From the NCBI GenBank assembly GCA_023362775.1, contig JALMGJ010000025.1, forward strand, positions 9,339,501-9,403,500: a stretch of DNA of 64,000 bases, given 5' to 3'. This document shows positions 10,776-13,935 of the stretch, one piece after another. Source of the stretch: Charina bottae (lineage: Eukaryota > Chordata > Lepidosauria > Squamata > Charinaidae). The translations under genes and the position numbers were made by a program. Below the pieces are notes generated by a model, which saw only the letters and a list, made by a program, of their open reading frames with translations, was not told the DNA's origin and did not search any database. Every line of letters begins with the position of its first letter. The stretch's first letter is position 1.

Positions 10776-12062
10776 TGTTGTTGTTCAGTCGTTCAGTCGT
10801 GTCCGACTCTTCGTGACCTCATGGACCATAGCACGCCAGGCCTTCCTGTCCTCCACTGTCTCTCGGAGTTTACTCAAATTCATGTTCATTACATCGGTGA
10901 TGCTATCTAACCATCTCATCCTCTGCCGTCCCCTTCTCCTTTTGCCCTCAGTCTTTCCCAGCATCAGGGTCTTTTCCAGTGAGTCCTCTCTTCTCATTAG
11001 GTGGCCAAAGTATTTGAGCTTCAGCTTCAGCATCTGTCCTTCCAATGAGCAGTCAGGGTTGATTTCCTTTAGGATTGACTGGTTTGACCTCCTTGCAGTC
11101 CAAGGGACTCTCAAGAGTCTTCTCCAGCACCACAGCTCGAAAGCATCAATTCTTCGGCGCTCAGCCTTCCTTATGGTCCAACTCTCACAGCCATACATTG
11201 CTACTGGAAAAACCATAGCTTTAACTATACGGACCTTTGTCGGCAAGGTGATGTCTCTGCTTTTTAATATGCTGTCTAGGTTTGCCATAGCTTTCCTTCC
11301 AAGGAGCAAGCGTCTTTTAATTTCATGGCTGCAGTCACCGTCTGCGGTGATCTTGGAGCCCAAGAAAATAAAATCTGTCACTGCTTCCATTTCTTCCCCT
11401 TCTATTTGCCAGGAAGTGATGGGACCAGATGCCATGATCTGGGTTTTTTTAATGTTGAGTTTCAAGCCAGCTTTTGCACTCTCCTCTTTCACCCTCATCA
11501 AGAGGCTCTTTAGTTCCTCTTCACTTTCTGCCATTAGGGTGGTATCGTCTGCATATCTGAGGTTGTTGATATTTCTCCCGGCAATCTTAACTCCGGCTTG
11601 TGATTCATCCAGCCCGGCATTTCTCATGATGTACTCTGCATATAAGTTAAATAAGCAGGGTGATAATATACAGCCTTGTCGTACTCCTTTCCCAATTTTG
11701 AACCAGTCGGTTGTTCCATGTCCGGTTCTAACTGTTGCTTCTTGACCCACATTCAGGTTTCTCAGGAGACAGGTAAGGTAGTCTGGTACTCCCATCTCTT
11801 TAAGAATTTGCCACAGTTTGTTGTGATCCACACAATCAAAGGCTTTAGCGTAGTCAATGAAGCAGAAGTAGATGTTTTTCTGGAACTCTCTTGCTTTTTC
11901 CATGATCCAGCGAATGTTGGCAATCTGATCTCTAGTTCCTCTGCCTCTTCGAAACCCAGCTTGCACTTCTGGTAGTTCTCGGTTCACATGCTGCTGAAGC
12001 CTAGCTTGTAGGATTTTGAGCATAACCTTGCTGGCATGTGAAATGAGCGCAATTGTACGGTA
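10776..12062 (-). mobile_element. BovB (RTE) LINE, 5'-truncated, with target-site duplication
   Basis: A 1287-bp minus-strand insertion flanked by the 11-bp direct repeat atttctgtcct (10765-10775 and 12063-12073). The 3' end, at the left, has the BovB terminus (gttgttgttcagtcgttcag on the plus strand). The 5' part with the endonuclease domain is missing, the usual truncation of LINE copies. An open frame covers nearly the whole copy, implying a recent insertion. BovB is the presumed helper for the Sauria SINEs, which share its tail. Confidence 0.9.
10785..12023 (-). CDS. BovB reverse transcriptase fragment, uninterrupted ORF
   Basis: A 412-codon open frame encoding the reverse transcriptase and C-terminal region of a BovB LINE. 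It would copy element RNA at a nicked chromosomal target if a full protein were made. Visible blocks in order: 'EVQAGFRRGRGTRDQI' (near residue 20), 'FIDYAKAFDCVDH' with a catalytic Asp (near 55), 'KGVRQGCILSPCLFNLY' (near 110), the YADD catalytic box in 'LRYADDTTLM' (near 155), then 'FELWCWRRLLRVPW' and 'GKRRRGRQRMRWLDSI'. The first Met is internal to the family protein: the frame simply starts where the copy is truncated, and the endonuclease domain is absent. It is therefore not an autonomous gene. No internal stops indicates youth. Stop lies just inside the 3' end. Confidence 0.9.
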   Translation of the reverse strand: MLKILQARLQQHVNRELPEVQAGFRRGRGTRDQIANIRWIMEKAREFQKNIYFCFIDYAKAFDCVDHNKLWQILKEMGVPDYLTCLLRNLNVGQEATVRTGHGTTDWFKIGKGVRQGCILSPCLFNLYAEYIMRNAGLDESQAGVKIAGRNINNLRYADDTTLMAESEEELKSLLMRVKEESAKAGLKLNIKKTQIMASGPITSWQIEGEEMEAVTDFIFLGSKITADGDCSHEIKRRLLLGRKAMANLDSILKSRDITLPTKVRIVKAMVFPVAMYGCESWTIRKAERRRIDAFELWCWRRLLRVPWTARRSNQSILKEINPDCSLEGQMLKLKLKYFGHLMRREDSLEKTLMLGKTEGKRRRGRQRMRWLDSITDVMNMNLSKLRETVEDRKAWRAMVHEVTKSRTRLND

Positions 12063-12520
12063 ATTTCTGTCCTAGGAGCCTGCAATCACCAGGGGTCTGG
12101 GGAGTGCCAGAATGTTCTGATATCAGAATTCTCTAAATTGAAGATAGGATTTTCCTGTGCAAAATGGAGCCATTATAACCTAATCTGACTGTTATTCATG
12201 CTTTACAATGAATTGTATTGATGTCCAGGCCTGACTAGGCTGACCATATTTCCTTGAGACAAAAACAGGACATTGGGATGGCAAAACGGGACAGGGTTAA
12301 ACTTATGTAATAAAAATGGGCAGAACTTCCATCGTCCCCTTGTGGCCGCCATTTTGACTTTTTTGACCACACCCTGCAGGCACCCCTGAACATGGATGTG
12401 CCCTAGGAGTCTCCAGGAGCTAGGCTTGACCAGAGAGTGCTGTGTCTCCTAGCCTTTGAAGGATCATTCCATGCTGGGTAGCTGGGACTTCGCTTTCTCC
12501 AAGGCTGCATCTCTCCAGAC

Positions 12521-12604
12521 CAGTGTTTCTCAACCTTGGCAACTCTAAGATGGGTGGACTTCAACTCCCAGAATTCCCCAGCCACCATGGGAATTCCCCA
12601 GCCA
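12521..12604 (+). repeat. Half of a palindromic hAT-like MITE
   Basis: Starts 'cagtgtttctcaaccttggc' and contains 'ggacttcaactcccagaatt', the opposite arm of the repeat at 4803-4866. A short duplicated 'gggaattccccagcca' follows. The right arm is absent, so this is a truncated insertion inside the larger TIR element. Confidence 0.5.
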
Positions 12605-12989
12605 GCAAGGACGGGAAAGCTGGGTGCTCCGCTTTCCTGTCTTTCCCGACTTTCCTGTCCTTGGCGGAGCCAATGCCGGTGAGGGGGCAGCGCGCACGCG
12701 CGCTGCAACACCCCCTCCCTCGCCGTCCCTTGCCTGCATCACAAGTTCCCTACAAGAATGGGGACGGGGTCTATTTAAGAATAGGATTTTTTTTAAAAGG
12801 GTGGAGCACACCACCAATGGGACTGCCAACCCTTTACTGAAAAGTGACCATGTGTCCCAAACTCCAACACACACCTAGCTGCTGAGTGAGAAGGGGGAGA
12901 AGGAGAGAGAGGAGGGAGGGGGTGGGGAGGAGAGAAGAGATTGAGGGAGGAAAACAATGGGTGTGACAGTTCCAAGGGACCCTGCTTAC

Positions 12990-13083
12990 CGATCTCCAGC
13001 ACAATAAAGACGACATTTACATTTTTAAGTCCCGGCTTTATGTCTTTTATGATTAAGAGGTACGTTTCATTTGCCATGCTCAT
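12990..13083 (-). pseudogene. NABP1: Captured first coding exon of a NABP1-like (SOSS-B) gene
   Basis: On the minus strand, ATG at 13083-13081 opens 31 codons plus one base, ending at a consensus-like donor (G|GTAAGC, GT at 12989-12988). The peptide contains 'KDIKPGLKN' and 'NVVFIVLEIG'. From recalled family sequences this is the N-terminal strand region of the OB fold of NABP1/SOSS-B2, the ssDNA-binding subunit of the SOSS DNA-repair complex; about 19 of 21 residues from 'KDIK' onward agree. NABP1 fits better than NABP2 (VLEIG versus VLETG). As I recall, the exon ends where the NABP coding sequence is also split by an intron. A donor present means genomic DNA was captured, not an mRNA copy. 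No second exon (RVTKTKDGHE-type) occurs in the window, so this is a fragment. The reading frame and donor are intact. Confidence 0.8.
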
Positions 13084-13914
13084 GCTGCTTGCTCAGGAGG
13101 AAGACACGGGCGTTGCAGGGGCAGATTGAGCAAGACAAACCGCCCCTTCCCAGAGGTGTGCTCGGTACAAGAGGGTGGCTGGGGACCGGGGGTGGGGTGA
13201 GTTTGACCAGCTCTTCAAAAAAGGAGTGATGTGTACAGCCCGGGGTGGGGGGGGGAGGCACTTTTTAAAGAGATGACAAGGCACGCACAGCAACCCCCCT
13301 TTCCTGTAACTCAAACTGGTTGCTCTCCCAGTAGGGGAGAAAACCTGATCGCAGACAAATCTAAAGCTGGGCTGGGGTTGGAAGCCTGGGTGCTGTGATT
13401 ATACAGGCAAGGCGTTTGGCCGGCTTCAGCTACGACTTCGACCCCTGTTGGGGGTCCCCTGAAGGAAAAAACCAGTCCAGCATTCTTTGCCTCCCTGCTT
13501 CTCACAGCGCTAGCTCCTCTGAAAAAAGAGGGAAGGAGAAGAGAAAGTGGAGTGCTTCTCTTGTTCCTTATTATTTTACAACGACTAAGGTGCTTTTCTG
13601 CTTATCTTGCTCATTCACCCCCTCGTGAGCATGCTGCCCCCCAGAAAGGTAACTGCTCTGCTCTCAAACGCTCCCCTTTATGGAAGGAAAGCATCTGCCA
13701 CACCACGGCTGATCCATTTGCACCTCATGAGGGGAAGGGAGAAAAGACAGTTAAGGATGGCATAAGAAAAGCAGGGAGCCCAGCGGATTCCAGACGGGAG
13801 GGCTTCCTCTTCCAGGCTGCCTCCAAAAACGGGACAATATTGAGATTTATATCAAAAAGACGGTACGGTTCAAAAATGTTTAAAAAACGGGGCTGTCCCG
13901 TTCAAAATGGGACG
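13084..13914 (-). promoter_or_regulatory. Probable captured 5' flank/promoter of the NABP1-like exon
   Basis: This 0.83-kb stretch lies upstream of the NABP1-like ATG in its orientation and inside the transposon ends. It is richer in G+C and CpG than neighbouring DNA, as expected for a vertebrate CpG-island promoter and 5' UTR. No TATA box was identified. The promoter role is inferred from position and composition only. Confidence 0.4.
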
Positions 13915-13935
13915 TATGGTCACCCTAGGCCTGAC

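Follow-up and report, generated by a model that had tools for sequence, protein, structure and literature searches.

How did the start of a host gene come to lie between the ends of a transposon in the 64-kb stretch of squamate DNA analysed here (the window), and has it travelled with that element? We conclude, at a probability of roughly 0.96, that a hAT element took up a piece of the NABP1 5' region once and then transposed as a unit to about eighty places. This reading follows from a single parental locus, the same breakpoints in both subfamilies of the element, a derived insertion and distinct 8-bp target duplications. The features of the locus are:

12228..12235, no strand: target-site duplication (TSD), left, GGCCTGAC
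12236..13927: non-autonomous hAT-type element, 1.69 kb, with transposon-like ends, terminal inverted repeats (TIRs) and a TSD
12236..12248, plus: TIR, left, TAGGCTGACCATA
12236..12741, plus: left non-NABP1 part (transposon end and a GC-rich stretch), without a match in the parental NABP1 5' region
12521..12580, plus: interspersed-repeat fragment within the left part; its 60 bp are 92% identical to window 4866-4807
12742..13776, minus: captured host DNA, NABP1 5' region, 1,035 bp, homologous to G000:C111:17994077-17995128
12742..12989, minus: 5' part of NABP1 intron 1, about 250 bp, from alignment to the parent
12984..12989, minus: splice donor GTAAGC (GTAAGT in the parent)
12990..13083, minus: coding exon 1 of NABP1 (94 nt) as captured, reading MSMANETYLLIIKDIKPGLKNVNVVFIVLEI plus one base
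13052..13054, minus: 3-nt in-frame insertion within the exon
13084..13776, minus: NABP1 5' leader and upstream promoter-position DNA, about 690 bp, from alignment to the parent
13777..13927, plus: transposon end, right, absent from the parent
13915..13927, minus: TIR, right, TAGGGTGACCATA, 12/13 against the left TIR
13928..13935, no strand: TSD, right, GGCCTGAC

The limits of the element are set by its flanks and termini. Both TSD copies flanking 12236-13927 are identical over 8/8 bp, in agreement with the earlier note, which had reported 8-bp target repeats; it had also described 13-bp matching inverted termini, and inverted ends are indeed present, but only 12 of their 13 bases match. A window-wide scan for pairs of identical 8-bp repeats, separated by 0.3-5 kb and abutting 13-bp inverted ends, gave this unit as the sole case with at least 12 TIR matches; seven further cases had 11 matches, all within one ACAC stretch. 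When bases were permuted inside 500-bp blocks in 100 control windows, at least 12 matches arose in 0/100 and at least 11 in 15/100. In the whole 64 kb there are three occurrences of AACGGGAC or its complement, all within the two element ends, and the ends of the element family carry the terminal motif TAGG(C/G)TGACCATA. Short TIRs of the TAGGGTGACCATA type, which we take to mark the hAT superfamily, are found in the window and in other copies, and the 8-bp target duplication is likewise that of a hAT element. Helitrons have no TIRs and make no target duplication; the element has both, which argues against its membership of that group. An Rfam search gave no match, and a bacterial promoter scan is not meaningful for this DNA. 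Adjoining the element on the minus strand is a 428-aa reverse-transcriptase-like frame (window 10785-12071), presumably BovB/RTE-like.

The minus-strand start exon and donor were recognized as NABP1-like in the earlier note, an assignment borne out by protein comparison and by the parental gene described below. The captured exon matches SOSS-B1 (SOSS complex subunit B1) chains (E 2e-6), and its best fit, among the best 120 of 1034 proteins found with the human NABP1 sequence, is Python bivittatus NABP1 (30 identities in 32 columns). Once the 3-nt insertion is left out, the exon encodes exactly residues 1-31 of the Python protein. Window positions 13147-13091 also match Hemicordylus NABP1 (P0104) within its translated 5' leader (E 1.5e-4, 2.1 kb searched). 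A protein search with the ORF covering the upstream region and the right end returned 0/188 candidates at E ≤ 10 and thus gave no outside support there; the parental locus supplied it. Using nine squamate NABP1 proteins, tblastn revealed no NABP1 exon 2 or later exon in the window, all other matches having E ≥ 1.5. An inner TIR-like motif at 12844-12859 was considered as a nested end and rejected, being intron sequence that is also in the parent with 1-2 base differences.

The parental NABP1 gene lies on another contig, C111. Its exon 1 occupies 17994401-17994318 (as matched by tblastn), its exon 2 lies at 17993908-17993741, and later exons follow as far as 17986738; the last exon of its protein stands at 94% to Python, 83% to Rhineura and 81% to Protobothrops, which makes a python- or boa-grade snake the likely host. 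Over its whole length the cargo aligns with the 5' region of this gene, so that the origin proposed for it in the earlier note holds within the same genome. Consensus A (built from 21 copies) aligns at 507-1532 to L079 378-1429, the fetched stretch corresponding to C111:17994077-17995128, with 947 of 1008 ungapped columns identical (93.9%). Consensus B, built from another 18 copies that were fetched as subfamily B, matches the identical parental stretch with its positions 434-1491 at 95.0%, and the window copy agrees with the parent at 92.5% of 1009 columns. Homology to C111 stops sharply on both sides, and the cargo limits 12742/13776 in the window were taken from these consensus breakpoints; 12236-12741, which is also found in other family copies, and 13777-13927 have no counterpart at the parental locus. 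NABP1 upstream DNA was thus captured, as had been claimed, but only 12742-13776 (1.03 of 1.69 kb) comes from the gene, and the GC-rich stretch at about 12611-12741, compared with the parental locus, is foreign. The intron-1 assignment is further supported by the read-through ORF P0122. This is the arrangement of a Pack-TIR: host DNA sits between the two ends of one TIR element, its parent is identifiable elsewhere without a flanking element, and it keeps upstream DNA and intron 1 and is therefore not a retrocopy.

A separate degraded NABP-like sequence at G000:C110:152945318-152946969 spans the exon 1/2 boundary and has stops; it is either a retrocopy or NABP2-related.

The element is multicopy. 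We searched 1,804,297,929 bases (1.80 Gb) in 278 contigs, and the whole unit gave at least 45 DNA matches with 40 of 6204 first-look candidates scored, a count that is a lower bound; full-length matches other than the window's own were 88-97% identical. A search of the genome with the Python NABP1 protein (114/114 candidates scored) gave 87 matches: 6 in the parental gene, 2 in the degraded piece on C110 and 79 to exon 1 elsewhere, 31 of which have no stop within the match. Pooled, the searches define 89 non-redundant places on 26 contigs, of which 10 had no exon match in the protein search and none is on C111. We read 58 elements (the window plus 20, 19 and 18; three later stretches stand outside these counts), and 41 have both ends. 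Exact 8-bp duplications flank 36 of these 41 and are all mutually different; the flanking 8 bp match at 7/8 in two copies (L027, L036), and three have no matching duplication in register (L012, L026, L093). The termini therefore recur elsewhere, and the dispersed promoter-position DNA and exon envisaged in the earlier note were recovered as copies with the same cargo and independent duplications, far from the parent, as in a multicopy Pack-TIR. A search with the read-through ORF (21 matches) found NABP1 exon-1/intron-1 read-throughs such as P0122 and no further element copy; it had no power for copy number, because the window's own ORF was missing from its matches. The terminus pattern had 0 matches in viral contigs and 0 in the genome_contigs collection, and with the read-through ORF three viral stretches fitted a pattern, none of which was confirmed.

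These copies point to one capture. The 3-nt exon insertion (TTAAT) is present in 49/49 long copies (the 58 minus nine short pieces) and absent from the parent. In a tree rooted on the parent, A forms a shallow burst and B a second cluster, beside a few older branches; being rooted in this way, the tree cannot alone prove a single origin. The shared breakpoints and the shared insertion together are most simply explained by a single capture and later amplification. It is very improbable that an old hAT copy at the site was instead patched with NABP1 DNA after a break, leaving an immobile cargo. Tan 2021 (PMC8277862) describes such gap filling as the commonest mode in animals and the usual source of single-copy Pack-TIRs, and it could still explain how the first chimeric element arose; as an account of the spread it is refuted by identical breakpoints in both consensuses, the insertion common to all long copies and 36 distinct duplications.

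It is similarly improbable that segmental duplication or satellite-like growth accounts for most of the spread, the transposon ends being carried along passively. The copies at intervals on C46 and on C110 (14.45-14.76 Mb), together with short pieces that have the same truncation points on C228, C243, C244 and C110 would suit such growth, whereas the 36 different 8-bp duplications on many contigs, in a comparison covering the 8-bp flanks, argue against it as the main route. Two other accounts can be set aside. That the window is a functional NABP1 locus flanked by transposon ends by chance would fit an open exon with ATG and donor, but this is refuted by the NABP1 gene with exon 2 and later exons on C111, and by a window with no exon 2, an exact TSD and dozens of equal copies. 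That a retrotransposed NABP1 transcript inserted into a hAT element is just as remote, since upstream DNA and intron 1 are colinear with the gene and nothing was found in its favour.

Local rearrangements of the family were seen alongside, and some copies resemble segmental or tandem duplicates rather than separate insertions. Five exon-bearing copies lie at intervals of about 38-73 kb in C46:24077795-24269775 (G000), probably a segmental duplication carrying the element, and similar clusters are found on C110 near 14.45-14.76 Mb. The nine short pieces fall into three sets with common truncation points. L041, L042, L043, L046 and L047 (C244, C243, C228) share one inside the exon, at consensus 807, and so are probably duplicates of a single broken copy; the other two sets are L038/L039 and L044/L045. 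On C13, L100:21-474 is a 454-bp deletion derivative in which the left 150 bp run directly into the final 290 bp of consensus B; it retains NABP1 upstream DNA, and its flanking 8 bp match at 7/8 by eye. Shorter offspring of this kind may be numerous; 2243 first-look candidates have words in common with the right end. In L099 (C110:230708712-230710200), a subfamily B copy, some 130 bp interrupt the element; judged by eye, this insert is similar to the terminal part of the RTE-like frame (window 10785-12071). L098 (C100:16949918-16951900) is an A-type copy with rearranged cargo, consensus 900-1239 being followed by 1067-1683.

In the reading we favour, a non-autonomous hAT-type element took one contiguous NABP1 piece comprising promoter-position DNA, the 5' leader, coding exon 1, its donor and about 250 bp of intron 1, possibly by template switching or gap repair. 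The chimeric element then moved as a unit, presumably by means of a hAT transposase acting in trans, and its spread gave rise to at least two subfamilies and about eighty dispersed exon-bearing copies from one parental gene. Candidates for such a transposase exist in the genome: the hAT dimerisation domain PF05699 gave at least 86 matches (150 of 285 candidates scored), of which 18 lie in 656-aa frames with near-identical scores (e.g., G000:C212:36100389). Seventeen of these 18 have no stop, which suggests an autonomous, recently active hAT family. The terminal motifs of the element family were absent from the one PF05699 match examined (1/86), in 601 bases around the end of its domain and beyond. 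Counted against single capture and transposition is that no autonomous partner was found, on the basis of that one match, and that no cargo-free progenitor was identified.

The exon is a passenger of the element and diverges like the remainder. Among the 21 A copies its divergence from the consensus is 1.8%, within the range of other regions (1.2-3.4%), and there is thus no sign of constraint. The ATG is kept in 44/49 copies, the frame has no stop in 30/49 and the GT donor persists in 46/49; all three are retained, with the reading frame intact, in 24/49. A stop at codon 13 is found in 14 of the 18 copies fetched as B, so that spread did not depend on a coding exon. The earlier note had spoken of a captured promoter; DNA from the promoter position was captured, but "promoter" is used here for a putative element assigned by position, and its CpGs are eroded. 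The CpG observed/expected ratio is 0.67 for the parental stretch, against 0.43 for the A consensus and 0.33 for the window copy. Across the copies, the 49 sites that are CpG in the parent read CG 963, TG 605 and CA 341 times, compared with GC 2531, GT 254 and AC 211 times at 73 GpC control sites. This pattern is what one would expect if the copied promoter region has been methylated and has decayed.

Some copies might start transcription and splice into their neighbours. If sense copies upstream of or inside host genes still had a live NABP1 promoter along with the ATG exon and donor, they would act as dispersed gene traps that drive chimeric transcripts, a reading we hold as tentative and rather unlikely. 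Were it true, several host genes would have gained the promoter and a common N-terminal exon of a DNA-repair gene, and the family would be a cut-and-paste counterpart of the bat element HelibatN3.

Pack-type capture by hAT elements is already established in vertebrates and other animals, and is better documented than the earlier note's "rarely described in vertebrates" implied: Tan 2021 (PMC8277862) counts 370 Pack-TIRs in 100 animal genomes, 208 of them hAT-type and four multicopy, and has the multicopy ones arise by template switching into a chimeric element that is then moved by transposase. According to the same paper, Pack-hAT-N8_XT of the western clawed frog resembles the present case as a multicopy hAT element with 5' host gene DNA and distinct TSDs; it carries 291 bp of CAPSL 5' UTR on three chromosomes, whereas here about 1.03 kb of upstream DNA, exon, donor and intron is found with 79 exon-bearing places. 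The Ssk-FB4 Pack-TIR of Drosophila, described there too, also moved a captured 5' region and gene body as a unit with distinct TSDs, but is FB4/MULE-type, with nearly a whole gene in four copies in a fly. HelibatN3 of vesper bats (PMC4778049) is likewise an amplified vertebrate promoter-exon-donor cargo (NUBPL promoter, coding start and donor), but as a Helitron it differs from the present element with its TIRs and 8-bp TSDs. Plant Pack-TYPE elements including Pack-hATs (PMC8903248) hold host gene fragments between TIRs as here, a likeness drawn by description only. Ranked results from open-licence PMC text held no report of a NABP1-carrying transposon or of a hAT family with about eighty exon-bearing places, and a literature search by terminus sequence gave best-ranked titles unrelated to transposons. 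For a squamate, a hAT cargo of the promoter-exon-donor kind in so many copies looks new.

The NABP1 element family is a well-resolved vertebrate case of a cut-and-paste element that captured and amplified promoter-position DNA, a first coding exon and its donor, with the parent, breakpoints, shared mutation and TSDs all within one assembly. It lets one ask directly how frequently copies of this kind turn into alternative promoters and by what means the host keeps them silent, and the codon-13 stop in the B copies lets one ask whether spread is affected when the cargo carries a nonsense mutation.
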